Shown here one piece after another: positions 1,946 to 29,302 of a stretch of DNA of 29,302 nucleotides. The notes beneath the pieces are model-generated. The model ran no database searches and was not told the origin of the DNA. It saw only the letters and a program-made list of their open reading frames with translations. The translations under genes and the position numbers were made by a program. Position 1 is the stretch's first letter. Each line of letters opens with the position of its first letter. Origin of the DNA: Bacteroidales bacterium (GTDB lineage Bacteria; Bacteroidota; Bacteroidia; Bacteroidales; VadinHA17). The stretch spans positions 1 to 29,302 of the forward strand of contig JAAZAP010000256.1 of the NCBI GenBank assembly GCA_012514255.1, in the 5' to 3' direction.

Positions 1946-2016
1946 GGCACAAAAATAATTCCAGGCAATTCACAGCTTTTTTTGACATCAATGTTCTTTT
2001 TTTAAGTAATTTCTAG

Positions 2017-2024: not shown

Positions 2025-2032
2025 ATAAATAT

Positions 2033-2056: not shown

Positions 2057-2101
2057 TAAAATAAAATAACCCTTGATTAAAAACCTAACCCCTAAAAAAT
2101 C

Positions 2102-2977: not shown

Positions 2978-3005
2978 TTATTATGTTTTCTTTCAGGTTC
3001 ATGTT

Positions 3006-3042
3006 TGCCTGACGGGCAGTCTGCTGAATCGTCTGTCAGGCA
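3006..3042 (+). other. Intergenic stem-loop between the lipoprotein gene and susC
   Basis: TGCCTGAC (3006-3013) pairs perfectly with GTCAGGCA (3035-3042), and four more inner pairs are possible if G-U is allowed. No U-run follows, so it is unlikely to be a simple terminator. A smaller hairpin, TTGCC/GGCAA, lies at 3084-3099. In Sus operons intergenic hairpins can set relative transcript levels; that function is an inference here. No clear promoter was found for susC in 2978-3154. Confidence 0.45.
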
Positions 3043-3154
3043 CCCATGAAATGTAGTCATTGCGACTATAAAGATCTATTCTCTTGCCGGAACAGGCAAT
3101 GAATTTCTGTGAGTGCGTTATGTGCCTTCTGTTTATCAGTGAAACATTTTTGAA

Positions 3155-6100: not shown

Positions 6101-6238
6101 CTGTACACCCTTACAAAGTACTCCGGATATGATCCGGAGGTTTCGATATTTGGAGGGAGTGTCTTCGGCAAAGGAGCGGACTATGGGGCCTATCCGACTG
6201 CCAGATCAGTTCTGTTCAGCATCAATGCAACCTTCTAA
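3155..6238 (+). CDS. SusC/RagA-family TonB-dependent outer-membrane transporter
   Basis: The 1027-residue protein is an outer-membrane active transporter that imports oligosaccharides using TonB energy, working with the SusD lipoprotein encoded next. A signal peptide covers residues 1-19 (ending NTAFS before QE). A carboxypeptidase-regulatory-like domain spans about 22-98 (IHGKVVDEDKVPMPSVTVV). The SusC signature follows, with LDAIVVIGYGTQRKEDVT near 102-119. The plug carries IRIRGTTSINGTNEPLYVID at about 164-183. The beta-barrel fills the rest and ends in a terminal Phe (SINATF), as needed for outer-membrane insertion. Length is normal for the family and there is no break. It is followed by susD after 17 bases. 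The substrate is not predictable from this protein. Confidence 0.97.
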   Translation: MKNSILFLACLLFVNTAFSQELIIHGKVVDEDKVPMPSVTVVIDGTTTGTVTDAEGKFTLTADKSTARTITCSFVGYSKTSVNLADGVTYYEFTMVPETTELDAIVVIGYGTQRKEDVTVSISSVRAKEIDSPAITSLDQSLQGQASGVVVSQSSGKPGAPVSIRIRGTTSINGTNEPLYVIDGIPIITDPAELTTGTIQGSAINPLTSINPQDIESMQILKDASATAIYGARGANGVILINTKRGRTGALQVNLNFSWGLQQLAKGIDLLNARELAELGNDAVTEARKYYPEIAYGSNFAVPSRFGEGTDWQGEIFRIAPLSNSQISLQGGSENTVYFLSANLVTNQGIIHNSDFNKGTIRVNLDTELSEKVKTGINLNMSQSVSHGVTTGVPNVASSVTAMALLFNPGQEVYDSTQVGGYTYESNTINAIPNPVAEMNETDIVITTDRMIGDFYIDWDIIKNLQYKFKIGVDAFFNKEQQYIPSYIKRGQDKGKGSNVDIKGYTWLMENTLTWKFATDKHHFNVLAGQTAQKFVSEKAEIAVERFEDERLTYYNLGMGLDKTIYSGYSSWAMLSGLGRIMYDFDSKYYLTVSGRLDGSSKFGIENKWGFFPSVSAAWRISKERFFADIESINDLKLRLSAGSVGNEGIPSGATLSLMGTHQYFYGEGSGAEVIGTYVYSLQNNDLKWEVTRQYDAGIDLSLLRSRIEFTTEAYLKNTSDLLLYLPVNRSSGFEYVWANVGDLQNRGIEFSLNSVNFEGDFRWSTRLNFSFNRNEVTNLDKSDNIYGTSVMNILDWTMISEGQPIGVIYGYKSDGIIQLDEDPAEVPFFPSKIARWGDRKYVDKVPDGKLTVDDYYELGNANPDFSYGFRNTFSYKNFSLDIYIQGDYGNEIVNFNRIQLESFDGFQNNSAVALERWTETNPTNEYPRANASSHGIIMSDVWVEDGSYARLKQVIFSYNLPKDLLSRVKISNIQLSLSGYNLYTLTKYSGYDPEVSIFGGSVFGKGADYGAYPTARSVLFSINATF

Positions 6239-6255
6239 CCGCAAAACTTAAGAAA

Positions 6256-7722
6256 ATGAAAAAAATCATCATATTTCTGACGGCCCTGTTGCTTGCGCTT
6301 GGCAGCTGCCAGGATTTCCTGGAACAAGACCTCCGTTCTGAACTGAACTATGACAATTACTTCATGTCAGAGAGGGATCTGACAAGCTTTGCCGACGGCA
6401 TGTTCGGCGGGCTTATCACGTGGACCTGGACTGGTGGGGGGTTGTTTTTCAATAATTACTGGGTCTTGCAGGACCTGGCATCAGACAACTGCTATGAAAC
6501 CGGTCCCTCGATCGATATGCTTGATCTGTCACAATTTACCTTTGATGTCAATAATGCCACTGTGTATTATGTCTGGGTTGGCTGCTATGAGGTAATAAAT
6601 TCAACCAATGTCCTGCTTGAGGAATCAGAGAACATAAAAGATTATTCAAAGCCGGAGATAAAGAATCACCTTCAGGGTGAGGCCTATTTCCTTCGTGGTA
6701 TGCTTTACTTTGACCTTGTCCGGTTGTTCGGCGATGTGCCGCTTCAACTTTTTTCCACAAAGACTGCTTCCGAGACCCAGATAGCCAGGACACCGGTAGC
6801 CCAGGTGTATGAAAGTGTAATTAGTGATCTTGAAAAAGCAGAACAGCTGCTTGCCGTGAATCCATTTCCCGACAGGGTGGCAGGAATTCCCACAAGCATG
6901 ACCGCATCGGCATTGCTGGCAAAGGTGTATCTGACAAGGGGTGCGCTGAACAATAATGCAGCGGATTTTGCCTCGGCTAAAACCTGCCTTGAAAAGGTGC
7001 TTGGTCACTATACTCTTGAGCCCGAGTATGCTGATATCTTTAAGATCAGCAAGGCAAATTCGGGCGAGATACTGTGGGCCATCAATTTCAGCGGAACACT
7101 TGGTGAAGGATGGACAACTAACCAGTTTATTGTACGCCTCATGCCAACCACCATCTCAGACAATGGCACCCGTAACGGGCAGGGCTGGGAACGGCCGCTG
7201 GATATCCTTTATGACAGCTTCTCGGAAACTGATGAACGAAAAGCAGCCACCTTTATCACCGAGTTTGAGGGAGAGGCCTTTGACGGGCCTTTCATAAGGA
7301 AATATTGGGACCAGGAGGCTGAGGGAGGCAGGCAGAACGGAGAATCTGATGCCGACTATATCTATCTCCGTTATTCGGATGTGTTGCTGATGTATGCTGA
7401 GGTACTTAATGAGATTAACAATGGGCCTACCGTTGAAGCATATAACGCTATAAATGATATACGTGACAGGGCAGGGCTTGACGACCTTGCTGACGGAATG
7501 AGTTACCAGGCATTCAAGGATGCCGTGTTGCAGGAACGGCAATGGGAGTTCGTAATGGAGGGGCACAGGTGGTTTGACCTTGTCAGAATGGGAAAGCTTA
7601 TGGATCGGGTTCAGCTGGCAAAGCCCACCGCCAATATCCAGGCTCACCACATACTTTTCCCTATACCTCAGAAAGAAAGGTACCTCAATCGTAACCTGAC
7701 CCAGAATGAAGGATACAATTAG
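6256..7722 (+). CDS. SusD/RagB-family surface glycan-binding lipoprotein
   Basis: This 488-residue lipoprotein (lipobox ALGSC, Cys18) is the surface lid of the SusC transporter. The SusD hallmarks are visible: the N-terminal QDFLEQDLRSE segment, a TPR-like helical core (GEAYFLRGMLYFDLVRLFGD), and the C-terminal RWFDLVRMGKLM and LFPIPQKERYLNRNLTQNEG. Length is typical and the frame is intact. It starts 17 bases after susC and its last 17 bases overlap the start of the isomerase-like gene, so the genes are co-transcribed and the next one may be translationally coupled. Tryptophan-rich stretches near residues 50-70 (TWTWTGGG) might contribute to sugar stacking, but this is only a guess. Confidence 0.96.
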   Translation: MKKIIIFLTALLLALGSCQDFLEQDLRSELNYDNYFMSERDLTSFADGMFGGLITWTWTGGGLFFNNYWVLQDLASDNCYETGPSIDMLDLSQFTFDVNNATVYYVWVGCYEVINSTNVLLEESENIKDYSKPEIKNHLQGEAYFLRGMLYFDLVRLFGDVPLQLFSTKTASETQIARTPVAQVYESVISDLEKAEQLLAVNPFPDRVAGIPTSMTASALLAKVYLTRGALNNNAADFASAKTCLEKVLGHYTLEPEYADIFKISKANSGEILWAINFSGTLGEGWTTNQFIVRLMPTTISDNGTRNGQGWERPLDILYDSFSETDERKAATFITEFEGEAFDGPFIRKYWDQEAEGGRQNGESDADYIYLRYSDVLLMYAEVLNEINNGPTVEAYNAINDIRDRAGLDDLADGMSYQAFKDAVLQERQWEFVMEGHRWFDLVRMGKLMDRVQLAKPTANIQAHHILFPIPQKERYLNRNLTQNEGYN

Positions 7723-9490
7723 CCAGAACGAAATATATCAGCCAAATTTCAATAAAGTACCTGTACTTCGTGTTTCGGAATTCAACGACGGTTATTTAAG
7801 AGGTTGGGAGAATATCTTCAGGGCAATATCCGGGAGGATGAAAATTGATCCCGGACAGAAAACAGTCATAACAGTTGATTGTAACCTCGGAATTTATTAT
7901 GACGAGTTACTCCGGGTATTCTCCCAAAAACTTAATCCTGACCTGGTCATTACCAGTAACGACTATTTCATGTCCCCGGATGAAATCCAGAGGATCACAT
8001 GGCCTGATGTGACTGATGACAGGATATTCGGGTATCTTACACGGTTAAATTTCTCAGATCTTACGGACAAAAACAAAGCAGGCCTCTGTCGTGATAAAAT
8101 AAGGGATATAACTGATGGGGTGGTGCTTGTCTTTGGCTACGGAGCTTCTTTAATTGCTGAGATGCCGACAGTTCTTGTCTATGCCGATATGCCACGCTGG
8201 GAGACAGAGCTGCGGATGAGGGCTGGTACCGTTGAGAATCTCGGCCTCAGGAACAGCCAGGAGCTGGCAGAGACAAAGTACAAGAGAGCGTTTTTTGTTG
8301 ACTGGAGGGTGTGTGACAGGCACAAGAAAAAGCTTATGGCCAGGTGGGATTTCATTCTTGACACAACATTGATGAATGATCCAGGGATGATAACAGCCTC
8401 TGCCTTCAGCCGGTCACTTCGAAAGGCCCTGACCACCCCTTTCAGCATTGTCCCCACCTTTGATCACGGTATATGGGGCGGGCAATGGATGAAAAAGATG
8501 TTAGGCATTGATCCTGAGCCTGAAAACTATTCGTGGTGCTTTAATTGTATCCCGGAAGAGCAGAGCCTGATGCTTGACTTTGGAGAAGGACACTTCGAGA
8601 TGCCTTCTGTCAACCTTGTATTTGCGTATCCGGCAGAGCTGCTGGGAGAAGCTGTATATGGAAGGTTCGGTGATGAATTCCCGATCAGGTTTGATTACCT
8701 CGATACCATGGATGGCGGCAACCTCAGCCTGCAGGTGCATCCGGTCACGGAATACATCCAGGAGAAGTTTGGGGTTCATTATACCCAGGACGAAAGCTAC
8801 TACATAATGGATACCGGTGAGAATCCTTCCGTTTATCTTGGATTGAAAGAGGGTATCAATCCCCGTGAGATGATTGACGACCTTAACAAAGCCCAGGATG
8901 ACGCCGTTGTGTTTGATGATGTAAAATACATCAACAGGTGGCCCGCTAAGAAGCATGATCACTTCCTTATTCCCGGAGGTACCATCCATGCTTCTGGTAA
9001 GAACTGCCTGGTACTGGAGATCAGCGCCACAACCTATATTTTCACCTTTAAGCTTTGGGACTGGGGGCGCCTTGATATTGACGGCAGACCACGGCCGATA
9101 AACATCGATCATGGCAGGAATGTGATTCAGTGGAACAGAACGACTGACTGGGTAAGACAAAACCTGATAAACCGCGTCACGAAGATCTCTGAGGGAGACG
9201 GGTGGACTGAGGAGTTCACCGGCCTGCACGAAAGAGAGTTCATCGAAACGAGAAGACACTGGTTCTCAAAGAAGGTAAATCATAACACCCACGGGGGCGT
9301 GAATGTACTGAACCTTGTTGAGGGTCGCGAGATCATTGTTGAAAGTCCTGATGACTCATTTGAGCCCTTCATCATTCATTATGCCGAGACTTTCATTGTC
9401 CCGGCAAGCGTCGGTACCTACACTATCCGACCTTATGGCGAATCTGAAGGGAAGCTGTGTGCAACCATTAAAGCATATGTAAGAACTTAA
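7706..9490 (+). CDS. Class I mannose-6-phosphate isomerase-like protein with extra N-terminal domain
   Basis: The 594-residue cytoplasmic protein (no signal peptide) has a C-terminal half, from about residue 260, that resembles type I phosphomannose isomerase, a zinc enzyme interconverting mannose-6-P and fructose-6-P. All four zinc-ligand positions appear present: Gln343 and His345 in LSLQVHP, Glu363 in QDESYYIMD, and His428 in PGGTIHASG. The FKLWDWGR motif follows. Residues about 1-250 form an additional domain recalling uridine/phosphoribulokinase-like proteins (ITVDCNLGIYYDELL, then FVDWRVCDRHKKKLM), but I see no P-loop GxxxxGK. The whole is longer than the usual 300-400-residue ManA. The ATG at 7706 lies inside susD and no other early Met is available. 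Its place in the PUL suggests it handles released mannose or a related sugar. The true substrate may differ. Confidence 0.85.
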   Translation: MKDTISQNEIYQPNFNKVPVLRVSEFNDGYLRGWENIFRAISGRMKIDPGQKTVITVDCNLGIYYDELLRVFSQKLNPDLVITSNDYFMSPDEIQRITWPDVTDDRIFGYLTRLNFSDLTDKNKAGLCRDKIRDITDGVVLVFGYGASLIAEMPTVLVYADMPRWETELRMRAGTVENLGLRNSQELAETKYKRAFFVDWRVCDRHKKKLMARWDFILDTTLMNDPGMITASAFSRSLRKALTTPFSIVPTFDHGIWGGQWMKKMLGIDPEPENYSWCFNCIPEEQSLMLDFGEGHFEMPSVNLVFAYPAELLGEAVYGRFGDEFPIRFDYLDTMDGGNLSLQVHPVTEYIQEKFGVHYTQDESYYIMDTGENPSVYLGLKEGINPREMIDDLNKAQDDAVVFDDVKYINRWPAKKHDHFLIPGGTIHASGKNCLVLEISATTYIFTFKLWDWGRLDIDGRPRPINIDHGRNVIQWNRTTDWVRQNLINRVTKISEGDGWTEEFTGLHEREFIETRRHWFSKKVNHNTHGGVNVLNLVEGREIIVESPDDSFEPFIIHYAETFIVPASVGTYTIRPYGESEGKLCATIKAYVRT

Positions 9491-13274: not shown

Positions 13275-13362
13275 CATGATCGCTTTATGTGGTTTGCATT
13301 GTAACCGCGATAAACATCTTGTGTCTGTGATATTAATAAAAGATACATATAAATCATTGCTC

Positions 13363-16251
13363 ATGAGAAAGCATATCCTCCTCCTTATATTTTCCGGGCT
13401 GTGTACAGGAATGTGGGCACAGAATGAGTTAAAGGACCCGGCCGATTATGTTGATCCCCTGATGGGAACATCTGTACCGCAGTGGACACTGTTCCCCGGA
13501 GCCACAACCCCGTCAGGGATGGTGAAAATCAGTCCTGATAACCAGGGTAGCGGATGGAAGGCAGGATATGATTATGGAGCGGAGAATATAGCGGGCTTCA
13601 GTCATATTCATTCAAGGACCATGGGAGGCCTTCTCATCATGCCTGTCACGGGGGTGCTGAAAACTACCCCCGGAAATCCGAAGTATCCGGGTTCCGGCTA
13701 CCGTTCGCGCTTTAGCCACGGTAATGAGTCCGCACTGCCCGGCTATTATTCGGTTTTCCTCGATGATTATAGAATAAAGGCAGAGCTTACATCCACAACC
13801 AGGACAGCTTTTCAGAGGTACACATTTCCGGAGACGGATACAGCAAGGATACTGATCGATCTGAAAATTCCGACAGACAATGGTTACGAAATACTTGAAG
13901 CCTGTGTCAGAAAGATCAGCAGCACGGAAATAGAAGGTTTCTCAACGCAGCAAAGCCTGCTGGGCGCTGAAGCCAACAGGTACACCCTTAACTTTGTGAT
14001 ACGCTTCAGCAAGCCTTTTGAGACGTTCAACGGATGGATCGGCGAAGAAGTGATTCACAACACGGGGGAGCTCCGCCTGTTGTACGAAGATGAAGATACC
14101 GGTGTCTTTCTGAACTTCACAACCGGGGAAGGAGAAGAAATACTTGTTCAGTCAGCAATATCACTCGTGAGTATTGATCAGGCCAGGATAAACCTGGAGA
14201 CGGAGCTGAAACCATTTGGGTGGGACTTCAACAGGGTAAGGGAAAAGAGCCTGGAGGATTGGAATAGTCTTCTCGGGAGTATAAGAGTTGAGGGTGGGAA
14301 CGATGCCGATCTTAAAATGTTCTATACCGGCATGTACCGTGCTTTTGCAGGGCAGACCACCTGGAGCGATGTGAACGGCAAATATGTCGACATGTATGAG
14401 AAAGTGCAGCTCCTTAGCGACCCGGCTTACCCTGTATACGGATGCGATCCTGCAGGGCCGGGCACTATTGCCCTGTTTCAGCTCAGGAATCTGTGCCAGC
14501 CTGACCTGGCAAATAAATGCGTCAGGTCTTTACTTGAGTTATATGCAAAAGGAGGATGGATCGCCGAGGCTGCGGAAGGAATTGAGTATTCCGGCACAAT
14601 GGCTTCGTCATACGGCATCCCGATGATGGCCAGTGCTTACCAGCAGGGTATTCGCGATTTCGATACAACCTGTATGTACAAGGCTATAGTGCATGACCGG
14701 ACAGTGCCCGGGGTGCCTCATGCAGGAGGAGGGTTTGCTGGAGCAATCTTTCTTGATGGTTATATTAAGTCAGGCCATGTGAGCGGAACGACAGACTCGG
14801 CTGCAACCACCTTCGGATATGCCTACAGCGACTGGGCTGCAGCACAGATGGTAAAAAAATCAGGTAATGTATCTGACTTCAAGACATTCACGAAAAGAGC
14901 ATTCAGCTATCAGAATGTGACTGATCGGGGCAACAGCTTTTTATCCAAGTTTGTCCCGCATGATGTAAGCGGAATGTTCATACCCTCCGGTTGGGAGGAA
15001 TTGATCGGCATGCTGGAAAAAAGCATTGAAGGATCTATCAGTTCACGGGAATCCGGTAAGTCAGACCCCGGTCTGATAAAGACAGCCCGCTATTCGGGTG
15101 GATACAGTACTGAACAGTCACCTCTGCAGGTTGCCTGGCTCTTTAACTATACAGGCACACCATGGCTGACACAAAAATGGACACGTGAAGTGATGGCTGA
15201 ATACTTATCCGGAAACGCAGCCAGCATCACCCCGGGCCTTGATCCAGCACAGGCAGGGGCATTGTACGTAATGAGCGCCATCGGGCTTTTTCAGACCGAT
15301 GGCGGTACCTCATCAGAGCCATTTTTTGAGATTGGCAGTCCCATTTTTGAGAAGATCACAATCAATCTTGACAAAAAGTACTATCCGGGAGGAAGGTTCA
15401 TCATTATTGCAAGCAACACCTCTGATGCAAACATTTACATCAGGCGAGCCACCCTGAACGGTGCTGATCTCAGCAGACCATGGTTCAGCCAACCGGAACT
15501 GGCTGACGGCGGGATCATTGAGCTGGATATGCGATCAAGGCCGAACCATAAGTGGGGCAGCAATGCTGATGATGCGCCGCCATCGATGAGCACCCGGCTG
15601 ACCCGGGAAGAGACCGATGCTATCATGAAGTATGATAAGTATGCCGAAGACCTTGCAGCATGGAACCAGGCCCTCAGGGCTTATTACTACCATAAGAAAG
15701 AGCACTTTGAGACCTTGCCAGACACGGAAGATGAGATAATCTTTCTTGGCAACAGTATTACCGATAACAGCGAATGGTGGGAGCTCTTCGGTGACCCTCA
15801 CATCAAGAACAGGGGTATTGGCGGGGATGATACTGACGGAATTCTTGAGCGTCTTGATGAAGTCACAGGATCCAATCCGTCGAAGATCTTTATTATGATC
15901 GGTACAAATGACCTGTCTAACGGTAAAAGCGTTGAATATATAGCTGATAATTACAGGAAGATTATTGAGCGTATCCGGCAATCTACTCCGGGTACAAGGA
16001 TCTATATCCAGAGTGTCCTTCCTACAGATGATGCGGTACATTACACGCGCCGCAACACTGATATTATAAGGATCAATGACCTCCTGAAGCAGATCGCTGC
16101 GGAGAACGGGCTGGCATATATTGATCTGTTCGACATCTTCAAACTGGGGAACAATAAGTTAAATCCAGCCTACAGTATTGACGGACTGCACCTTAACGGC
16201 AAAGGATATCTGGTCTGGAAGAATGCGATCATAAAGTACGTTGAGGAGTAA
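13363..16251 (+). CDS. GH92-like alpha-mannosidase fused to SGNH/GDSL esterase
   Basis: I set the start at ATG 13363, which gives a signal peptide (MRKHILLLIFSGL...MWAQ) and 962 residues; the longer frame from 13276 has no such peptide. Residues about 25-760 follow the GH92 plan: YVDPLMGTS, FPGATTPSGMVKISPDN, GFSHIHSRTMGG, FGYAYSDWAAAQM and WLTQKWTREVM. GH92 enzymes are calcium-dependent exo-alpha-mannosidases. The usual catalytic block G-D-E-D...SAWYV is here GLDPAQAGALYV (Asp627), so one acidic residue may be missing. A possible acid is Glu408 in GIEYSGTM. Residues about 790-962 are an SGNH hydrolase: FLGNSIT (Ser798), RGIGGD, GTND (Asn849) and DGLHLNGKGY (Asp940, His943). This half should remove ester groups such as acetyl. 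Together they could de-esterify and trim an acylated mannose-type glycan. Confidence 0.88.
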   Translation: MRKHILLLIFSGLCTGMWAQNELKDPADYVDPLMGTSVPQWTLFPGATTPSGMVKISPDNQGSGWKAGYDYGAENIAGFSHIHSRTMGGLLIMPVTGVLKTTPGNPKYPGSGYRSRFSHGNESALPGYYSVFLDDYRIKAELTSTTRTAFQRYTFPETDTARILIDLKIPTDNGYEILEACVRKISSTEIEGFSTQQSLLGAEANRYTLNFVIRFSKPFETFNGWIGEEVIHNTGELRLLYEDEDTGVFLNFTTGEGEEILVQSAISLVSIDQARINLETELKPFGWDFNRVREKSLEDWNSLLGSIRVEGGNDADLKMFYTGMYRAFAGQTTWSDVNGKYVDMYEKVQLLSDPAYPVYGCDPAGPGTIALFQLRNLCQPDLANKCVRSLLELYAKGGWIAEAAEGIEYSGTMASSYGIPMMASAYQQGIRDFDTTCMYKAIVHDRTVPGVPHAGGGFAGAIFLDGYIKSGHVSGTTDSAATTFGYAYSDWAAAQMVKKSGNVSDFKTFTKRAFSYQNVTDRGNSFLSKFVPHDVSGMFIPSGWEELIGMLEKSIEGSISSRESGKSDPGLIKTARYSGGYSTEQSPLQVAWLFNYTGTPWLTQKWTREVMAEYLSGNAASITPGLDPAQAGALYVMSAIGLFQTDGGTSSEPFFEIGSPIFEKITINLDKKYYPGGRFIIIASNTSDANIYIRRATLNGADLSRPWFSQPELADGGIIELDMRSRPNHKWGSNADDAPPSMSTRLTREETDAIMKYDKYAEDLAAWNQALRAYYYHKKEHFETLPDTEDEIIFLGNSITDNSEWWELFGDPHIKNRGIGGDDTDGILERLDEVTGSNPSKIFIMIGTNDLSNGKSVEYIADNYRKIIERIRQSTPGTRIYIQSVLPTDDAVHYTRRNTDIIRINDLLKQIAAENGLAYIDLFDIFKLGNNKLNPAYSIDGLHLNGKGYLVWKNAIIKYVEE

Positions 16252-20750: not shown

Positions 20751-21632
20751 TTGAAAACCAAGATCTTTATACAGATTATTGCGGTCATTTTGTTCGTGGC
20801 TCTCCTGCCGGGAAATGCCCAGGAACTTCTGACCGACGGTGGTTTTGATACCACAACTGAAATCCCACTTGTCACGGGTGACCCATCACCCGATAACGCC
20901 TGGTACCTGTATCAGTCGCCTTACGTGACTGCTTCAGCGTACATTGAGAGCGGAATCTGCGTCTACAATATCCCAGCAGACGGATACCCGGGTGACTACA
21001 CGGGGGACATCCAGCTGATACAGTCAGGATTCATCCTGCAGCAAAATCATATGTATCGTCTTTCCTATGATGTCAGGGCTGATGCTGAGCGCGACTACGG
21101 TTTGTTTCTTGGAGAGGCGGGAGGAAACTGGAACAGTCTCATCGGGTATGACAAGTATGACCAACATGCCACAACAGAGTGGCAGACGGTTGTTATCGAC
21201 TTCAAAACGCCACTGATTTTCCCGTATCATAAACTCATCTTTGAGCTTGGTGCCTTTGCCGTAACCACCTACTTTGACAACATATCACTGACAGATCTTG
21301 GTCCATACACACCTTCAATCGGTATCCTCGGGACTTCACTGAGCGGCTGGGACACTGATGTTGATATGCAGACAGCCGATGGAATTCATTATACTCTACA
21401 GCAATACCTTGCTGCCGGAATGGTGAAATTCAGACAGGATGATACCTGGCTTGTCAACTGGGGAGGAACTGAATTCCCATCAGGCACGGGTTCAAGTTAC
21501 GGACCCAACATTATGGTAACCAACCCGGGAACCTATGATATCACTTTTAACAGGGAAACTGCAGAGTATTCATTCACCTGTATTGACAACTGCTCTGCCT
21601 TCGTGGGCATTGCCGGGATGGTGGTGGGATGA
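20751..21632 (+). CDS. 5' part of a frameshifted secreted carbohydrate-binding protein
   Basis: A TTG at 20751 starts a clear signal peptide (MKTKIFIQIIAVILFVALLP, cleavage after NAQ). An in-frame TAA lies shortly upstream and no early ATG exists. Residues about 25-185 look like a CBM4/9-type carbohydrate-binding jelly roll (ELLTDGGFDTTTEIPL at the start, FELGAFAVTTYFDNISLTDL at the end). Residues about 190-275 are a SusE/SusF-type repeat (GWDTDVDMQTADGIHYTL, VKFRQDDTWLVNWGG). The frame then stops at 21630-21632, in the first residues of a second copy of this repeat, which continues in another frame. The intact protein would be about 640 residues. It is probably a secreted or surface glycan-binding protein. 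Confidence 0.75.
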   Translation: MKTKIFIQIIAVILFVALLPGNAQELLTDGGFDTTTEIPLVTGDPSPDNAWYLYQSPYVTASAYIESGICVYNIPADGYPGDYTGDIQLIQSGFILQQNHMYRLSYDVRADAERDYGLFLGEAGGNWNSLIGYDKYDQHATTEWQTVVIDFKTPLIFPYHKLIFELGAFAVTTYFDNISLTDLGPYTPSIGILGTSLSGWDTDVDMQTADGIHYTLQQYLAAGMVKFRQDDTWLVNWGGTEFPSGTGSSYGPNIMVTNPGTYDITFNRETAEYSFTCIDNCSAFVGIAGMVVG

Positions 21633-22701
21633 CATTGATATGACAACCACCGACGGAATCACATATACCCTTACCGGTTATCCATTCAACCAGGGGGAAG
21701 TTAAATTCAGGATGGATAATGGATGGGAAATAAATTGGGGGAATTATGAATTCCCTGCAGGCTACGGTTACCAGGACGGGCCCAACATCCCGGTTCCAGC
21801 GGGGACCTATACTGTAACATTTAACAGGTTGACAGGAGAATATGCTTTCACGGCAACATCATGCCCGGTTCCGGGGATAATATGTCCTTCCTCCATCTAT
21901 GCATCAACTGATCCGGGCCTTTGCGGAGCCTATATCTATTACCCCGACGTAATACCTGCTCCGAATTGCGGCGGTGAGGGCGTAACGGTGACCCAGACCG
22001 AGGGCCAGCCCTCCGGTTCCTTCTTCCCGACGGGAACGACGACAAATACATTTGTCCTGACAAATGCTGAAGGCGCTACGGCAACATGCAGTTTTGACGT
22101 ATATGTCTGGGACGGTGAAGCACCGGTTGTGTCAGGCCTGAAGGAGAACTATGATCCATTATGGCCGCCTGACCACAAGATGGTACAGGTTCCGCTGGAA
22201 TACTCAGTCCTCGACAATTGCGGCAGCACCGAATGTCAGCTTTATGTTTACAGTAACGAGCCGGACGACGGAACAGGAGACGGAGACACGGCTCCTGACT
22301 GGGAAATCATTGACGCACATACTGTCATGCTGAGGGCCGAAAGATCCGGCACCGGAAACGGAAGGGAATATCATATTATCATCGAATGCCGTGACATGTC
22401 ATGGAATTATTCATACAATGAGATCATTGTCATGGTCCCGCATGACATGAACGGGATAGCGCCTTTCATGACCTATATCTGGCCAAACCCGACTGAATAT
22501 GACTTTTACCTGCAGGTGGAATCAGATTCTGATAATCCCATACAGGTATCGGTTACCAATGCAACAGGAAGGGTGCTCTCAAAATACCTGATAAGTAATA
22601 ACGAGACTATCAGTTTTGGCAGTAACCTGATGCCGGGAACCTATTTCGTAAACGTGAAACAGGGCAGTTACTCTGAAACAATCATGGTGTTCAAGCAGTG
22701 A
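21535..22701 (+). CDS. 3' part of the frameshifted secreted protein: SusE/F-type repeat, HYR domain, T9SS tail
   Basis: The open frame begins at ATG 21535 but its meaningful sequence starts about 21622, where it takes over from the upstream fragment. The second SusE/SusF-type repeat (DDIDMTTTDGITYTLTGY, VKFRMDNGWEINWGNYEFP) is followed by an HYR domain (CPSSIYASTDPGLCGAYIYY to TCSFDVYVWDGEAPVV). A cysteine-containing domain of the LWPPDHKMVQV type follows, with SNEPDDGTGDGDTAPDW and LRAERSGTGNGREYHI. A T9SS type A sorting domain ends it (YIWPNPTEYDFYLQV, then LMPGTYFVNVKQG). With the 5' part this makes one gene with a frame break near 21621. It is followed by a strong terminator. Confidence 0.72.
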   Translation: MISLLTGKLQSIHSPVLTTALPSWALPGWWWDDIDMTTTDGITYTLTGYPFNQGEVKFRMDNGWEINWGNYEFPAGYGYQDGPNIPVPAGTYTVTFNRLTGEYAFTATSCPVPGIICPSSIYASTDPGLCGAYIYYPDVIPAPNCGGEGVTVTQTEGQPSGSFFPTGTTTNTFVLTNAEGATATCSFDVYVWDGEAPVVSGLKENYDPLWPPDHKMVQVPLEYSVLDNCGSTECQLYVYSNEPDDGTGDGDTAPDWEIIDAHTVMLRAERSGTGNGREYHIIIECRDMSWNYSYNEIIVMVPHDMNGIAPFMTYIWPNPTEYDFYLQVESDSDNPIQVSVTNATGRVLSKYLISNNETISFGSNLMPGTYFVNVKQGSYSETIMVFKQ

Positions 22702-22781: not shown

Positions 22782-24425
22782 TCAGCGCCATGATTCCTCC
22801 TGGAGCACCCTGAGGTTTTCCCGGAAGACTCCGCAAATCTCATTGTGTCTTTTGGCCGATTCCAGAGCTATTTTATCAATTCTTTCCTGCCCCTCTGAAG
22901 GGGACCAGCCTGACTCGTAAAAGTCGAACAATCCGGACAGAGTTTCTGCGAGGAAAAGATTTCCCTGAGCAAGAGTCTCCAGGTAAACAGATTTTTGTCT
23001 CTCTACAATTTCATTTAGTTTTCCGAAATGATCCCAGACTGCAAGGTAATTCCTCACCCATTTTGCAAGATTCACGGCGCCTTCGCGGCCCCATAGCCAC
23101 TCAGCAAAGCAATCTGAAACTGCCTCCCAGCAGGCGTTAAGGGCCAGGGTCCGGAAATTATAATCGAATTTCCCGGGCCGGCCAAGGAGCCGGCCGGCTT
23201 TCCTTAATTCTCTTTCCACACGGGTGCCGAAGTAAGGCATGAGCTTCAGGAAGGTAATGGGCACGTTGCTGTCGCTGCAAATCCCCTCCAGAAAACGCAG
23301 GTTCTCCCTGAGTGATGAAAAAGTTGATTCAGGCTGGAACAAAATATAACCATAATCAAACCCGATTTCGAGTTTCCGGAGTACCTCAACGCCATACCTG
23401 GCAGATTCCACTGTCATCTTTTTGTTATACCTGTTCAGCCCTTCGTTTGTCCCGTCCTCCAATCCGATGAATACCATAAAGAGTCCGTGCCTTTTCATCA
23501 TTGAGAAGGTCTCCGGCTCAATCTCATCAGGTCTGCAGTTCATCTTCCAGATTATCCTGTTCAGAAGGCCCGTCCGCTCAATTTCACTGCAGAACGACTT
23601 CATCCAGAAATTGCCGCCGGCAGTTTTTACCGGATTATCATCATCCTGAAAGAGAAAAATCCTGCATCCGCCATCAGAGTAAAGATGTAACATTTCTTCC
23701 ACAACAGCCTCGGGCCTCCTGATACGCTTAAGGGGCCCGCCTGCCTGCCTGTAATACTCTCCTGTATTGCAGAAGGAACAATTATATGTACAGCCTCTTC
23801 CTGATATTATTGTGGAGTATCGCTTGCCCAGCGCATACTCCCTGAGAGGTCTCCGGTAAGGATATGGGAAACTGTCAAGGTCCTTCTCAGGATCCCGGAG
23901 TGGCGTCCTGAATACCCTTCCATTTTCCCGGTATGCCAGGTTTCTCAGTTTTCTCCAGTCGGAGTCTGTCGTGAAACAATTTACAAGCTCAAGGAATGTG
24001 TATTCACCCTCAAACCTGACTATGGAATCAAGTTCGGGAATAAATCCGAACAGTTCTTCGGGATAGAGGCTGGCATAATGGCCTCCGGCAGTGAAGTGAC
24101 AGTCAACACCACCCTCTCTCAGGTATCTGGCAAGTTCGGTGAATTCACCCAGGCAGGTTTCGAAGATCACCGAGAATCCCACCACGACAGGACTCACTCT
24201 TTTTATGGCTGCCAGGATTTCCTCATTGTCATACCTTATATCGATCATCCGGCAGGTGATTCCGGCTCCAGCCAGCATGGACATAAGATACCCCACCCCC
24301 AGGTTTTCTTCTTCGCCGAAGGCAACTAATAAAACAGGTTTCAAAGAAGGATTCAAACCTTGCTTTCGAGGTTGTTTATTATATTGATCATTCCTCCGAT
24401 CAGTTTTTCTTCCTCCTGAGCGCAT
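22782..24425 (-). CDS. B12-binding-type radical SAM protein
   Basis: The product is up to 547 residues. Residues about 30-150 form a cobalamin-binding-type Rossmann domain (PVLLVAFGEEENLGVGYLMS, then FTAGGHYASLYPEELFGF). The radical SAM core follows, with the 4Fe-4S motif CTYNCSFC (Cys212, Cys216, Cys219) inside SGRGCTYNCSFCNTG. Blocks such as FLFQDDDNP, MNCRPDEI, FIGLEDGTNEGLNRYNKK and GYILFQPESTF are typical of the B12-radical SAM group, which includes methyltransferases. The roughly 150-residue C-terminus (FDYNFRTLALNACWEAV onward) is helical and unassigned. The ATG at 24425 overlaps the small upstream gene by 73 bases. A TTG at 24356-24354 overlaps that gene's stop as TTGA and starts right at the domain (MNPSLKPVLLVAF), so I think it may be the true start. 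Substrate unknown. Confidence 0.85.
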   Translation of the reverse strand: MRSGGRKTDRRNDQYNKQPRKQGLNPSLKPVLLVAFGEEENLGVGYLMSMLAGAGITCRMIDIRYDNEEILAAIKRVSPVVVGFSVIFETCLGEFTELARYLREGGVDCHFTAGGHYASLYPEELFGFIPELDSIVRFEGEYTFLELVNCFTTDSDWRKLRNLAYRENGRVFRTPLRDPEKDLDSFPYPYRRPLREYALGKRYSTIISGRGCTYNCSFCNTGEYYRQAGGPLKRIRRPEAVVEEMLHLYSDGGCRIFLFQDDDNPVKTAGGNFWMKSFCSEIERTGLLNRIIWKMNCRPDEIEPETFSMMKRHGLFMVFIGLEDGTNEGLNRYNKKMTVESARYGVEVLRKLEIGFDYGYILFQPESTFSSLRENLRFLEGICSDSNVPITFLKLMPYFGTRVERELRKAGRLLGRPGKFDYNFRTLALNACWEAVSDCFAEWLWGREGAVNLAKWVRNYLAVWDHFGKLNEIVERQKSVYLETLAQGNLFLAETLSGLFDFYESGWSPSEGQERIDKIALESAKRHNEICGVFRENLRVLQEESWR

Positions 24426-24568
24426 TTTTGAAAATACTCAAGAAACATGGTCGCCAGAGCCTTCCGTTGTGCGGGATTAAGATCCTGCGCAGTGAAATAC
24501 TGAAGAGCGTGCATTGGGAAGGGCCTTGGGTAGGGCCTGATAAATTCCCTGTCATCGAAACTTGTCAT
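24353..24568 (-). CDS. Small 71-residue protein between the TIR-TPR and radical SAM genes
   Basis: The 71-residue product has a proline- and aromatic-rich start (IRPYPRPFPMHALQYF) followed by a predicted amphipathic helix (LNPAQRKALATMFLEYFQKC) and an acidic stretch ending NNLESKV. It has no signal peptide or membrane segment. It begins 23 bases after the TIR-TPR gene and its TGA overlaps a candidate TTG start of the radical SAM gene, so it is probably co-transcribed and may be coupled. I recognise no family. It could be a partner, a carrier or a substrate of the radical SAM enzyme. It has no Gly-Gly leader or Cys/Ser-rich core that would mark a typical peptide precursor. Confidence 0.6.
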   Translation of the reverse strand: MTSFDDREFIRPYPRPFPMHALQYFTAQDLNPAQRKALATMFLEYFQKCAQEEEKLIGGMINIINNLESKV

Positions 24569-24591
24569 GACTTGATAGTTTAAAGTTAATA

Positions 24592-27060
24592 CTAAAGAGG
24601 TTTATTATAATTGCTTAACTCCCTTGTCATTGTCTTGAATTCAGGGGTTTCTGACAGTTTTTTCCATGATGGATCAATCCTGATGAGGTTCAGTGAGAAC
24701 CATGAAGGATTGGTCAGGAGATATTCCACCTGCCGGATTGCCTCGGGATAATTCCCTGTCATGGCATATATTTTGGCCAGGTTGACAATCATGTCCTGTT
24801 TCACAAGGGTTTCATCACCGGCCAGTTGCACTGCGGTCTTTCCGGCAATGACAGCATCGGTTGCATTCCCCAGGCCGGCATAGGCCAGGCCGCAAAGGCT
24901 GTAAGAATAAGAGTCTTCGGGATTCTCCATAATAAGCTTCTTGTATGTCACCAGTGCAGAGTCATAATATGCCATTGTCATTTGAACATCATCGAGCAGG
25001 CTGCAAGTCAATCCGCACATGAGATACCGAAGTCCCGGAGACTCGAAGTCGTCATTGGCTGATGACTTTAAATCTGTCAGGGCATCACTGTATCTGCCGT
25101 CGTAGATATTAAGGATGATCCTGTAATAATTATCGGTTTCGCCTATTCTTGCCAGGAGTGAGTCAAGCACTTCCCGTGCAGCGGCGGTATTTCCATCTTT
25201 CAACAGGCAGGCATCTATCGCGTTGATGTAGGGTCCGGGCCATTCCGGCAAGACATCTATTGCTTTTCTGAAATGAACCAGGGCGGTATCGAAGCTGTGC
25301 ATAAAGCCAAATGAGGTTCCGATATTGATAAGCACGAGTGCATCCTGAGGTTCGTCAATGATTACCTTCCTTAAAAGATCCTGTGATTTTTGCCATTCGC
25401 CCAGTCTGCGGTAGACCATAGCCATATAGAACGAAGGCTGATAATCAGCAGGATCCATCTCAGCTGCCAGGCTAAATTGTGATAAAGCTTCCCGGTAATC
25501 CCTCACACAGTAATAGTTGTAAAATCCCAGCGCAATGCGTGCATCAGGCAGGTTACTGTCAAGTGCAAATGCCCTTTCAGCGTCGGTCTTGCATTTTTGT
25601 ACATGGGTATCATCGAGCTGACCTGAATAGTATCCCCATGAACGTGCTATGGCTCTCCTGGCATAGGCAAGGGCAAAATCCGGGTCCTCAGCAACTGCCT
25701 TGTCGTACATTGAAATAGCCTCCGTAAAGCTAATGGAGTCGACAAACTTGTTTCCCGCGAGCAGGAAATATTGGGCATTATCAGAAAGAACGTTGGCTTT
25801 GAGAAAGTCGCGATAGGCGCCTGCATTTCTTGTAGGATTTTTCTCGATACGTGCTTTTTCCTCGGGAGTGAGTACTGCCTGGAGGGTTGATGCAGTCTTG
25901 ATGGCTATATCAGTCTGCATACCATGAAGGGCATCCCATGTTCCTTCAAAGACACTGCTCCATAGCTGTTGATCTTTGCGGACATTAATGAGTTTTACCG
26001 TTATCCTGACAATTTCATCGAAGATCTGGCAGTTGCCCTCAATAATATAGTTTGTGCCCAGTTCGTGCCCTATATCGGGTATTGATTTGCTTGTTTCCCT
26101 GTACTTCATAACCGAGGTCCTGGGACGTACTACAAGGTCATTTATCTTGCACAGCTGTGAAATAATCTCATCGGTCAGCGCATCTCCAATCCACATGTTT
26201 CCGTCATCGGCTCCAATAAGTTCGAACGGAAGCACTGCTATGGACTTCTGGCTGAGTCCGGCTGTTCCCCGGAATTTGCCAGGGATTCTTGACAGTCCGA
26301 ACAGGAGTACTGCGATCAGGAGAGCCGGCAACAGGAAGGCAAGAACGCGTTTCAGGAGAGATGGTTTACCGGCTTTGTACCTTGTGTAGGCGTCAGGAGC
26401 CTTTCCCGGTTCCTCCCACGGTTCTTTCTCATCTCCTTTTTCTTTGATTATGGGATGATGATCTGACTGCAGAGCCAGTATGATCTCCCTGACTGCATTG
26501 GCTGTCTTGTTGATCTGGTTGCGGTACCTGGTGCCGGAAAGGTTCCTGTGCTCATCGTCATCGGGGGTAAGGGGTCTGTTGACCCCTGGTTCCCTGTAGA
26601 CAAAATCAATAGCCCTGAGAACGCCTCCTGTCTCATTCTCCACCAGTTGCCTGTCTTCTTCATCAAGTTCATGGATACGTACGGGAAGGATCCGGCTTGC
26701 CACGTTGCCGCTGTGCAGGGTGACCTTCAGCCCGTATCTGTCACAGGAGGCTATCTCTGTAAAAGCCCTGAACTCATGCTGCCATGCAAAGGATTTCGGG
26801 TCACAGTAGGTACGGGAGATGACCGGAATAAAGATCAGGCATTTCAGCTTTTGCCTGAGTGATTCGTCAACATCATGTGTATCAAGAAGTCCGTCATGCG
26901 GATTTAGATCGAAGTAAACAGTAACCTCCTCCTTGAATGTAGATTCAAGTTCCGCTTTCAGATGGTCAACAAACCGGGTAACCCATCCGTCATGCCTGTT
27001 GTCGTTCTGGCGGTAGCTGATAAAGATATCATACTCATATCCCGCGATGAGAGAGGCCAT
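24592..27060 (-). CDS. TIR-domain, transmembrane, FlgO/TolB-N-like and TPR protein
   Basis: The 822-residue protein starts with a TIR domain (YDIFISYRQNDNRHDGWVTRF, residues about 8-155). The position of the catalytic glutamate of NAD-cleaving TIRs is kept: Glu96 in FAWQHEF (W-x-x-E). One membrane helix lies at about 235-258 (LLPALLIAVLLFGL). It is followed by a domain like those of FlgO/adenylate-cyclase-type proteins, running from SIAVLPFELIGADDGNMWIG at about 273 to the LTPEEKARIEKNP area. From about 420 to 800 there are many TPR units (EAISMYDKAVAEDPDFALAY, ALSQFSLAAEMDPADYQPS). The layout suggests a membrane sensor with TPR repeats on one side and a TIR effector or signalling domain in the cytoplasm. 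Whether it cleaves NAD is untested. A related gene lies 118 bases upstream. Confidence 0.88.
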   Translation of the reverse strand: MASLIAGYEYDIFISYRQNDNRHDGWVTRFVDHLKAELESTFKEEVTVYFDLNPHDGLLDTHDVDESLRQKLKCLIFIPVISRTYCDPKSFAWQHEFRAFTEIASCDRYGLKVTLHSGNVASRILPVRIHELDEEDRQLVENETGGVLRAIDFVYREPGVNRPLTPDDDEHRNLSGTRYRNQINKTANAVREIILALQSDHHPIIKEKGDEKEPWEEPGKAPDAYTRYKAGKPSLLKRVLAFLLPALLIAVLLFGLSRIPGKFRGTAGLSQKSIAVLPFELIGADDGNMWIGDALTDEIISQLCKINDLVVRPRTSVMKYRETSKSIPDIGHELGTNYIIEGNCQIFDEIVRITVKLINVRKDQQLWSSVFEGTWDALHGMQTDIAIKTASTLQAVLTPEEKARIEKNPTRNAGAYRDFLKANVLSDNAQYFLLAGNKFVDSISFTEAISMYDKAVAEDPDFALAYARRAIARSWGYYSGQLDDTHVQKCKTDAERAFALDSNLPDARIALGFYNYYCVRDYREALSQFSLAAEMDPADYQPSFYMAMVYRRLGEWQKSQDLLRKVIIDEPQDALVLINIGTSFGFMHSFDTALVHFRKAIDVLPEWPGPYINAIDACLLKDGNTAAAREVLDSLLARIGETDNYYRIILNIYDGRYSDALTDLKSSANDDFESPGLRYLMCGLTCSLLDDVQMTMAYYDSALVTYKKLIMENPEDSYSYSLCGLAYAGLGNATDAVIAGKTAVQLAGDETLVKQDMIVNLAKIYAMTGNYPEAIRQVEYLLTNPSWFSLNLIRIDPSWKKLSETPEFKTMTRELSNYNKPL

Positions 27061-27078
27061 GTTATCCGTTCAATTCTA

Positions 27079-27110
27079 TAAAGTTACGAAAGCGTGAGGG
27101 GCAAGTCAAG
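27079..27110 (-). promoter_or_regulatory. Candidate promoter for the downstream TIR-TPR gene
   Basis: On the minus strand CTTG (27110-27107) is followed after 20 bases by TAACTTTA (27086-27079), one base off the Bacteroidetes -7 consensus TAnnTTTG. The start would be near 27072, about 12 bases before the ATG at 27060. The gene may thus be expressed independently of the upstream paralogue. The rest of 27061-27178 shows no clear terminator. Confidence 0.45.
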
Positions 27111-27178
27111 AATAATTTCACTCAGGCTCACCCCCTTACCAAAGAGATTCAAATTGCTACGCTACTGTACCGTGGCTG

Positions 27179-29302
27179 TCATTCCGGCATGAAATATTTA
27201 TCCAGCAGATTCTGAAGACGAATATCAAACCGGAGTACCGAAAGGTCAGGATTGGCTTTTAGATTATAAAGATTCCTGAATCCGTGTTCAAGGGCAAGTT
27301 CAATATAATCAAGGGCTTCCGGAATGTTATCCTGAACGCACAGCACTTCTGCGAACGAAAAATACTGTGTAGAATCAAGTTCAACAGCCTTATTCAGCAG
27401 CTGCCGCGATAATTCCATCTCGCCAAGCCGGGCAGCCACAGAGGCGAGCGATGTATAGGTTGCGTAATGATCAGGGTAATTCTTCAGCCATAATTCCTCT
27501 GTACTCTCCCTGAACTTCAGGAACCAGGCTCTTGCAGCCTGTTGATCTCCCAGGGCTTCATGACAGCAACCCAGGTTATAATATGCGGAGTACTCTTCAG
27601 GATTACTGATAAGGATTTTTTCAAGGACCTTTATTGCTTCATCATACTTTCCGGTATTCATAAAAGTGTGGGCCAGCCGGTATCTGTTAATCATTAAGCC
27701 CGGGGACAATTCCATGGCCTTTTGATAACACTGTATGCTTTTCTCTGTACTGTCACGGAACAGCCAGGCTGATCCCATATAAAAATATCCCCATGCATTA
27801 TCGGGATTATCCTTGATCATCCTCTCAGCCCAGACATATGCTGAATCTGCATTCCCGATGTACTCTCCGTAGATCCAGAGAATGCCGGAGTATGTCAGGG
27901 TCATGTGAGGATTTAATCTGACAGCCTGCTTATATTCCGGCAGGGCCAACCCGTACTGTCCGTTTTGTTGATGGTACCATCCGAGATTATTACGAACCAC
28001 AGGGTCATCAGGGTACATTTTCTTCAATATCTCCATGTTGGCAATTGCCCTGTTATAGTCGCGTTCAATATTCTCAGCGTAGAAGGCAAGTATGCTGTAT
28101 CGTTCCCTGTCAGTAAGGTTTCCGGCATCCCTGACTGCCTGCCTCATCAGACCCCTTCCGGTTGTATCATTGAATTTCTGGATCAGTATGTTCCCCAGTG
28201 ATGCTTTTGCTGCCACAAATCCAGTATCAATCATGAGTGCATTCTGGTAGTATTCCCTCGCTTTGCTGAAATCAGAGAAGAGATGGCTCTCATAGCCCAG
28301 TGAATATTGTTGCAGGGCCGGAAGTGATGAGGTTGTTACCCTGGTCAGGGGTTTATCCTGCTGTGATATGTCATATCTCGATTCTCCAAGATCCTTGCGG
28401 ATTTTTTGACTTAGCCTGTCTATCACAGGAAGTATCTCCTCATCGGTGCCGGCATAAAGGATCTCTGATTTCAGAGGGTTGCCCGTTCTTGTTTCAATAA
28501 TTTTTGCAGTGATTGCGTATTGATTACCGGCTTTACTTATGCCGGGCACAATCAGGAGGCTTATCCCCTCACGCCGGGCTATCTCACGCCCGGTATTCTC
28601 GTCGATATAGGTTTTATCCGCGATCTTCATCCTTGACATCACCTCAATCATTCTTGACCTGGAAAAGACATTTGCATACCTCGACTGGCCGGCGGAGATT
28701 GAAAAAGCGGTATAAAGAGATTTATCGAAGACAGGATTGCCGGTATGGTTCTCAAAGTCTGTTATCAGCACCCAGTCACGTTTGGAGAATGGCAATGTGG
28801 TGCCGCCCGAGAAAAGATAGAAGGAGATAAGTGCCAGGATGATAATCAGGGAGCCTGAAGCTATTGCCAGCCTCTTCCTCCCTGTCCCTGACATTTTCGT
28901 TCCGGCCTGTCTCTCTTCCGCGATCCCGGAAGAGGAGTCGCTCCCTGACGGCTGATCTGCCGATTGGGATGCATTTGCCCTGACAAGGCCGGTGATCACT
29001 TCATCCACTGAATTGGCAACCTTGTTTATCTGATTGCGATAGCTGATCCTGTGCAGGTTTTTATCAGCGCTATCTTCGGGTTTAAGAGGGCGGTTTACAC
29101 CCGGCTCGGAGTAGACGAACTCAATTGATCTGAGAAATCCTCCCAGTGCTTCTTCAACCAGTGACCTGTCCTCAGGCTTCAGTTCATGTATCTGAACCGG
29201 CAGCACCCGTGATGCCACGTTTCCCGCAGGGAGTTTCACTTTAAGTCCGAACCTGTCACCGGAGGCTATCTCCACAAACGCCCTGAACTCATGCTCCCAG
29301 GC
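27179..29302 (-). CDS. TIR-TM-TPR protein, upstream paralogue (5' end outside window)
   Basis: The frame is open to the right window edge, so the N-terminal part of the TIR domain is missing. The visible 707 residues begin AWEHEFRAFVEIASGDRFG, which matches AWQHEFRAFTEIASCDRYG in the neighbour and includes the W-x-x-E glutamate. The post-TIR segment (SRVLPVQIHELKPEDRSLVE, EPGVNRPLKPED, SYRNQINKVANSV) is closely shared between the two proteins. A membrane helix (LAIASGSLIIILALISFYLF) follows. The next domain (WVLITDFENHTGNPVFDKSL) is FlgO/TolB-N-like but different from the neighbour's, and TPR units fill the rest (YKQAVRLNPHMTLTYSGIL, CYQKAMELSPGLMINRYRL). The effector half is conserved and the sensor half has diverged. 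The GTG near 29275 is not the real start. Confidence 0.88.
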   Translation of the reverse strand, partial: AWEHEFRAFVEIASGDRFGLKVKLPAGNVASRVLPVQIHELKPEDRSLVEEALGGFLRSIEFVYSEPGVNRPLKPEDSADKNLHRISYRNQINKVANSVDEVITGLVRANASQSADQPSGSDSSSGIAEERQAGTKMSGTGRKRLAIASGSLIIILALISFYLFSGGTTLPFSKRDWVLITDFENHTGNPVFDKSLYTAFSISAGQSRYANVFSRSRMIEVMSRMKIADKTYIDENTGREIARREGISLLIVPGISKAGNQYAITAKIIETRTGNPLKSEILYAGTDEEILPVIDRLSQKIRKDLGESRYDISQQDKPLTRVTTSSLPALQQYSLGYESHLFSDFSKAREYYQNALMIDTGFVAAKASLGNILIQKFNDTTGRGLMRQAVRDAGNLTDRERYSILAFYAENIERDYNRAIANMEILKKMYPDDPVVRNNLGWYHQQNGQYGLALPEYKQAVRLNPHMTLTYSGILWIYGEYIGNADSAYVWAERMIKDNPDNAWGYFYMGSAWLFRDSTEKSIQCYQKAMELSPGLMINRYRLAHTFMNTGKYDEAIKVLEKILISNPEEYSAYYNLGCCHEALGDQQAARAWFLKFRESTEELWLKNYPDHYATYTSLASVAARLGEMELSRQLLNKAVELDSTQYFSFAEVLCVQDNIPEALDYIELALEHGFRNLYNLKANPDLSVLRFDIRLQNLLDKYFMPE

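Follow-up and report, generated by a model that had tools for sequence, protein, structure and literature searches.

What do two membrane-bound TIR proteins have to do with a 71-residue protein and a B12-binding radical SAM enzyme? The question is raised by contig JAAZAP010000256.1 of a Bacteroidales bacterium (assembly GCA_012514255.1; 29,302 nucleotides, the whole of which is called the window here), at the end of which four open reading frames (ORFs) are packed tightly on the minus strand (22782..29302 in the window's ORF list). They encode TIR1 and TIR2, each with a TIR domain, a transmembrane (TM) helix and a TolB-like/TPR half, followed by the small protein and the radical SAM enzyme. 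A first-pass annotation made from the sequence alone had taken them for a probable operon, and comparison with relatives bears this out: the same four genes stand in the same order in L001-L006, L048 and L049, and the order, with one to three TIR-TPR genes, is retained in all 11 loci of a close group. That the operon is real and conserved is nearly certain. Its parts are of known kinds; no description of the arrangement was found among the literature matches listed, all of them open-licence PMC papers.

We describe here the gene content and order of this operon, its domains and a set of conserved putative active-site residues. From these we tentatively propose a membrane receptor-nucleotide-phosphatase cascade with an attached protein-modification pair; as a whole chain, with predicted activities, it falls somewhat short of an even chance. 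TIR1 and TIR2 would lie in the inner membrane, with their TolB-like/TPR sensor halves in the periplasm and their TIR domains in the cytosol. Upon stimulation, the TIR domains would convert nicotinamide adenine dinucleotide (NAD) into an ADP-ribose-type nucleotide, to be bound by the RyR domain of a SpoIIE-type phosphatase that is encoded upstream in relatives. The phosphatase would then alter the phosphorylation of SiaC, which would release or engage a partner (partner switching). The translationally coupled radical SAM enzyme would modify the 71-residue protein at or near an F-x-M-H motif, and the modified protein might act on or tune the TolB/TPR sensor half, beside which the pair stands with or without a TIR domain. 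If this is true, the nucleotides made by TIR domains would act on a phosphatase and a partner switch, and thus in regulation rather than through a killing effector. They would be read by a cellular RyR domain, so that the old question of cyclic ADP-ribose (cADPR) binding by the ryanodine receptor could be tested in a small bacterial protein. The pair would provide a small, coupled system in which to test how B12-radical SAM enzymes act on a protein encoded in a signalling operon, and the cluster could be a new route of bacterial signal transmission. A full bacterial parallel of cADPR-to-ryanodine-receptor signalling, with a TIR messenger, RyR-controlled dephosphorylation and the modified small protein as ligand or gain control, is more doubtful.

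Extent and conservation of the operon

Six loci (Bacteroidales/Bacteroidetes metagenome-assembled genomes by title) were obtained from a genome collection with the radical SAM protein as query. The order TIR1, TIR2, small gene, radical SAM gene is kept in 6/6 of them, at 57-89% radical SAM identity. A profile search of 117 genomes of one family found the radical SAM gene in 34, including the six initial loci; the regions of the other 28 were fetched. The close group (L001-L006 and L048-L052) carries in 11/11 loci, on one strand, SiaC, a RyR-SpoIIE gene, one to three TIR-TPR genes, the small gene and the radical SAM gene. The first two were labelled by phmmer, and in L001 also by Pfam (SiaC, PF09345, 7e-32; RyR, 9e-17, and SpoIIE, PF07228, 1e-21). 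The likely unit is therefore SiaC / RyR-SpoIIE phosphatase / TIR1 / TIR2 / 71-residue protein / B12-radical SAM enzyme. Because all the close relatives continue upstream in this way, the window likely holds the 3' part of the operon and covers four of six likely genes, one of which, TIR1, is truncated by the window end with 707 residues visible. The four-gene unit first described was thus incomplete.

The four genes are as closely spaced as reported, with gaps of 118 bases (TIR1/TIR2) and 23 bases (TIR2/small gene), except that the last junction overlaps by 4 bases, with a TTG start, and not by 73. TTG at 24356 is most likely the radical SAM start, in preference to ATG at 24425, because the database copy (P0128) has 524 residues and because the TTGA stop/start overlap recurs in relatives (10/12 sequences examined, i.e. 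the window and 9/11 relatives; L006 has a TTG without overlap and L052 an ATG).

Co-occurrence of the four genes, for which the first-pass annotation had suggested a neighbourhood survey, holds among close loci and only in part beyond them. Close orthologues (TIR2 identity of at least 57%) are accompanied by both the small gene and the radical SAM gene in 11/11 loci, a count that is biased because these loci were found through the radical SAM gene. An obligatory four-gene unit was rejected, since 13/39 genomes with this type of TIR lack the radical SAM gene (E 1e-40) and the pair stands beside a TPR gene without TIR in 11/34 loci. Two modules thus meet on the TolB/TPR sensor, one made of the TIR receptors with the RyR phosphatase and the other of the short ORF with the radical SAM gene.

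The small protein and its radical SAM partner

The 71-residue ORF, already proposed as a gene, is conserved in relatives and under purifying selection, with ratios of non-synonymous to synonymous substitution (dN/dS) of about 0.08, 0.14 and 0.19 against L001, L002 and L003 (dN 0.012, 0.071 and 0.12; dS 0.16, 0.49 and 0.64); against L004 and L005 dS is saturated. A short ORF precedes the radical SAM gene in 29/31 loci, as compared to 15/217 control genes. We counted ORFs of 55-115 residues on the same strand that end at most 125 bases before or at most 75 bases inside the radical SAM gene, the controls being the 217 other genes of at least 200 residues in the same loci. Only loci with upstream sequence were used, which excludes L071-L073 (3/34 loci), as these begin at a contig end. 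L003 is a miss solely through the overlap rule, its small ORF being 79% identical to that of the window, and L075 (radical SAM 27% identical) is a hit through a 58-residue ORF without the motif described below.

This motif, [FYW]-x-M, occurs in the short ORF of 25 of the 31 radical SAM loci and of a single control gene; it was picked after viewing the sequences and before the control count. In L066 and L068 it is present in two copies (Y-I-M). In the structure model of the small protein, the N-terminal part that holds the motif is loose and residues 32-70 form a single long helix. Close relatives conserve the protein along its whole length, with no variable core, and distant loci keep mainly the motif and the C-terminal helical stretch. 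The window's small protein has no Pfam or NCBIfam match above cut-off, and none of the small proteins of 37 relatives is named by NCBIfam at E < 0.01 (best E 0.011).

The partner enzyme has the B12-binding and radical SAM domains that had been read from its sequence, with a CxxxCxxC cluster motif found in 36/39 radical SAM ORFs, the remaining three (L072, L073 and L074) being partial. Its identity with one of the enzymes named in NCBIfam was rejected, every score lying far below the cut-off; the best-scoring ones are BchE, HpnR and PhpK. Two solved relatives are OxsB and CysS, which act on small molecules.

We consider it fairly probable that the 71-residue protein is the substrate of the radical SAM enzyme. 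The alternative, still unlikely, is that it serves as a fixed subunit or adaptor of an enzyme whose product is a small molecule, such as a methylated or cyclised cofactor or lipid, and that no peptide is modified. BchE, HpnR and PhpK act by name on tetrapyrroles, hopanoids and phosphinates, which together with OxsB and CysS agrees with such a role, as do the full-length conservation in close relatives and the lack of any transporter, protease or RiPP (ribosomally synthesized and post-translationally modified peptide) recognition element noticed beside the small gene, where selected neighbours were Pfam-scanned and none of these functions was systematically searched for. Against this alternative, distant loci keep little besides the motif and a helical stretch, and the motif is doubled in L066 and L068, as fits a target site.

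A TIR-TPR gene lies ahead of the pair in 18/34 loci; in 11/34 this place is taken by a TPR gene that received no TIR label. In two further loci TIR-TPR lies downstream, and in the last three neither is in view, two of these being cut at that end. Among 395 genomes sampled evenly across the phylum, five further ones encode a 36-39% identical radical SAM protein at E <= 1e-60 (6/395 including G003). Each is preceded by an ORF of 66-77 residues with W-D-P-x-P-x-W, and no TIR or TPR gene is labelled in the fetched stretches. The pair thus seems, from its distribution, to predate its link to TIR and to reach beyond it.

TIR receptors and the RyR-SpoIIE phosphatase

As noted in the first-pass annotation, TIR1 and TIR2 share the TIR domain and linker (67% identity over about 106 residues of the visible TIR1, W-x-x-E included) and differ in their sensor halves; outside these residues only short stretches align, at 19-28%. 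The W-x-x-E glutamate is present in both, and W93 and E96 of TIR2 are invariant in 81/81 aligned sequences (the window's own and 80 of 120 listed homologues, fragments and near-duplicates having been dropped by hand). W-x-x-E is found within residues 71-130 in 54/57 TIR-TPR ORFs of at least 500 residues from the fetched loci. A purely scaffolding role of the TIR domains, without NADase activity, is unlikely. It would agree with the score of the window's TIR, 21.5 bits where the TIR_2 cut-off is 28, and with the missing PDB match by sequence search; nevertheless, invariant W93 and E96 speak against it. Pfam TIR_2 matches 15/16 members at E <= 0.1 (best 1.4e-4). The TIR fold was not confirmed by Foldseek, the best 50 of 1506 matches of the TIR2 model being TPR or other helical-repeat proteins. 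In this model (mean predicted local distance difference test score 80.9, lower in the TIR part), alternating strands and helices at 10-114 are followed by a helix at 235-257, an alpha/beta region at 272-374 and TPR-like helices to 817.

The predicted TM helix and TPR half were also recovered. One TM helix follows the TIR domain, and lysine and arginine are in excess on its TIR side in 39/51 TIR-TPR proteins with a clear TM helix (six equal, six fewer; 57 examined, six without a clear TM helix). Since the excess sits on this side, the TIR domain probably faces the cytosol and the sensor half the periplasm. Several homologues carry the source names TolB-like or FlgO-family.

The RyR domain next to these receptors is a candidate reader of the TIR product. 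The pattern H-x2-W-x21-H-x16-D occurs in 30/30 RyR domains of RyR-SpoIIE proteins, with H235, W238, H260 and D277 (L001 numbering) invariant. In the phage protein RyDEP, according to passages of a 2026 preprint, H75, W78, H100 and D117 contact a ligand derived from 3'cADPR, 2'/3'cADPR is bound by six of eight phage RyR homologues tested, and the founding protein cleaved whereas the other tested homologues did not (PMC13232231). The spacing is identical to that of RyDEP in 30/30 domains. The phosphatase half keeps six aspartates, a putative PPM metal site, in 30/30 proteins and matches 6k4e, a 'putative serine phosphatase' that we take to be Pseudomonas aeruginosa SiaA, at 3e-27. In P. aeruginosa, the phosphorylation state of Thr68 in SiaC depends on SiaA and SiaB (as described in part of PMC7647112), and unphosphorylated SiaC binds SiaD (likewise from part of PMC8457831). 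SiaB is fused to SiaC in 11/30 RyR-SpoIIE loci and separate in L095; 10/11 close loci show no SiaB label, and the L005 stretch begins at SiaC.

That the RyR domain reads the TIR product is about evenly balanced. The alternative that it is a glycosidase or sponge ending the TIR signal, a self-limiting brake and not a receptor, is improbable. Counterparts of the RyDEP catalytic residues H75 and D117 are kept at the same spacing in 30/30 domains, so that RyR could degrade rather than sense; but fusion to a phosphatase with conserved putative metal-site aspartates is the arrangement expected of a sensor, and only the founding phage protein cleaved among those tested in the passages cited above.

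Distribution in the family is consistent with a TIR-RyR partnership. TIR of this type is found in 39 of the 117 genomes and RyR in 38, all 38 exceeding Pfam's cut-off for PF02026. The RyR-SpoIIE set comprises 30 of these 38; the RyR ORFs of the other eight had no SpoIIE label by phmmer, with no dedicated SpoIIE search, L083 alone Pfam-scanned and two ORFs of G431 wholly or partly outside the stretch. TIR is present in 27/30 RyR-SpoIIE genomes versus 12/87 others (Fisher p 4e-14), and 26 of the 34 radical SAM genomes have TIR (Fisher p 6e-10), both values being inflated by shared ancestry. Of the 30 RyR-SpoIIE genes, 20 have a TIR gene beside them, which shares their strand in 18 cases and is convergent in two (L091 and L092). 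Eight of the 20 (L091-L096, L099 and L100) have no radical SAM gene in the fetched stretch; two are on short contigs, and in G435 and G437 (L095 and L096) it lies elsewhere in the genome. Elsewhere, TIR lies beyond a convergent radical SAM gene and small ORF (L059 and L060) or about 3 kb from RyR-SpoIIE (L070), L071 and L098 run into contig ends, and no TIR is labelled in the fetched stretches of L081, L082, L089, L090 and L097 (in L089 a TPR ORF is cut by the contig end).

Several findings weigh against the cascade and its attached pair, besides the kept catalytic pair of RyR, the missing PDB match of TIR and the neighbours not noticed around the small gene. SiaC and RyR-SpoIIE are seen in relatives only, beyond the window end, and the presence of SiaC alone is uninformative because it occurs in 117/117 genomes of the family. 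RyR-SpoIIE is lacking in 12/39 TIR genomes (assembly completeness not given). In the phylum sample, besides G003, this TIR type is found in six genomes and RyR in 25, with an overlap of 0; as far as seen here, the link thus belongs to a single bacterial family, and a universal TIR-RyR partnership was rejected. As for the small protein, its model has no fold match at E 0.001, the motif match of L059 is not near the N-terminus, L053-L055 carry W-x-T-D instead, and L070 has no small ORF.

Other arrangements of these domains were seen. Near a RyR-SpoIIE gene, L081:11952-14075 (-) encodes an AraC-type helix-turn-helix with a TPR half, a DNA-binding output where TIR stands elsewhere. L005:17685-20495 (+) joins the same TIR type, an FGE-sulfatase domain and an alpha/beta-hydrolase region in one 936-residue ORF. 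Genomes G055 and G152 of the phylum sample carry this TIR type as divergent gene pairs, with open frames of 533-536 residues beside 708-880. At L083:7897-13082, RyR is near the C-terminus of a TrkA_N protein (569 residues) adjoining a DUF4062-AAA/NACHT-TPR protein (1130 residues); neighbours of similar size (1193-1261 residues) lie beside the RyR gene in L084, L085 and L087, the Pfam scan covering L083 only. At L088:2181-7870 (-), a RyR ORF (643 residues) is downstream of a TIR-NB-ARC-TPR protein (1036 residues), another kind of TIR beside RyR.

Known systems, feature coordinates and neighbouring genes

An anti-phage role, raised in the first-pass annotation, was not supported. PADLOC gave two weak candidate-family matches (PDC-M71B, 16.5 bits, TIR1; PDC-M51A, 23.1 bits, radical SAM), nothing above 23.1 bits and no Thoeris match for the four window proteins. 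That the cluster is an abortive-infection system is quite unlikely. It would agree with the match of the radical SAM protein to a candidate defence family, with the many TIR genes of some relatives (at least 27 in G437) and with Thoeris, whose TIR NADases are known to signal through cADPR isomers (same preprint passages, PMC13232231). However, what the linked genes encode is a phosphatase and a regulator of partner switching and no killing effector, and homologue names suggest an envelope-type sensor. As in Thoeris, TIR here has the expected glutamate (residue presence only, as given above) and, in relatives, the adjoining gene carries a domain of a cADPR-binding family. In contrast to Thoeris, the TIR protein here sits in the membrane and has a TolB/TPR half, and the role of reader would fall to the RyR domain of a SpoIIE phosphatase that is accompanied by SiaC. 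In Thoeris a ThsA-type effector is expected beside TIR; the close loci have SiaC, RyR-SpoIIE, the short ORF and the radical SAM gene as neighbours, and no such effector. Chance neighbours without common function are highly improbable, for although the arrangement with TIR has been seen in a single family, whose members share ancestry, the order is kept down to 57% radical SAM identity, with a coupled 4-base overlap and the short-ORF excess over controls.

Other systems resemble parts of the locus. SiaABCD of P. aeruginosa likewise has a SpoIIE/PP2C phosphatase beside SiaC, whereas here RyR precedes the phosphatase, TIR receptors are in the operon and no SiaB label is seen beside SiaC in 10 of the 11 close loci. 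TIR1 matches the TM-TolB-TPR part of TIGR04510 'putative peptide modification system cyclase' (8.9e-65), a family name that implies a modified peptide and for which no paper was found in the open-licence PMC literature. In its best stretch, however, the match covers profile positions 210-528, starting after the N-terminal part, which is presumably a nucleotide cyclase, and reaches 219.6 bits against a cut-off of 400. B12-radical SAM enzymes of RiPP pathways (ApyD and the TIGR03975 group) also combine B12-binding and radical SAM domains beside a short ORF, but the window's enzyme scores 69.7 of 750 and 26.3 of 281.85 bits. Phage RyDEP (PF02026) has the four ligand residues at identical spacing; in the cellular genomes considered here, a phosphatase follows RyR in the same protein. 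In FtsH ternary conflict systems, a radical SAM enzyme is predicted to modify a separately encoded peptide in a signalling cluster; these systems centre on vWA-MoxR/FtsH, and the passage describing them has no TIR-TPR, RyR or SiaC (PMC7159879).

Table 1. Features of the operon with their positions (in the window unless a locus is named), strand and support.
Feature	Position	Strand	Support
TIR1-TM-TolB/TPR protein, 5' end cut	27179..29302	-	ORF; TPR families; TIGR04510 over residues 142-461; TIR via 67% identity to TIR2
Full-length TIR1 relative	L001:4811-7216		
Single predicted TM helix of TIR1	28814..28870	-	Hydropathy 2.4 over 19 residues; K/R 5 before, 2 after
TIR2-TM-TolB/TPR protein, 822 residues	24592..27060	-	ORF; TIR_2 below cut-off; TPR; structure model
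W93-x-x-E96 of TIR2, putative NADase glutamate	26773..26784	-	81/81 aligned sequences
Single predicted TM helix of TIR2	26290..26346	-	Hydropathy 2.7 over 19 residues; model helix 235-257
71-residue small protein, probable radical SAM substrate	24353..24568	-	ORF, conservation, control count, model
F17-P-M-H20 of the small protein (motif [FYW]-x-M)	24509..24520	-	25/31 radical SAM loci vs 1/217 control genes
B12-binding radical SAM protein, 524 residues, TTG start	22782..24356	-	PF02310 5e-17, PF04055 8e-14; start from homologues and TTGA overlap
C-x3-C-x2-C of the radical SAM cluster	23769..23792	-	36/39 ORFs
TTGA, small-gene stop overlapping radical SAM start	24353..24356	-	10/12 sequences

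Next to the operon, within window positions 20751-22701 (+), two ORFs of 293 and 388 residues overlap in different frames; the second has a HYR domain and a Por secretion tail. Their counterpart in L001 is a single ORF of 747 residues with similar ends (L001:11725-13968, minus strand), so that the window copy looks interrupted or affected by a sequence error. A 991-residue ORF at 13276-16251 (+) combines GH92 glycoside hydrolase and GDSL-like lipase domains. At 1199-9490 (+), a GntR regulator, a SusC/SusD-type pair and following ORFs form a locus of the polysaccharide-utilisation type beside the operon.

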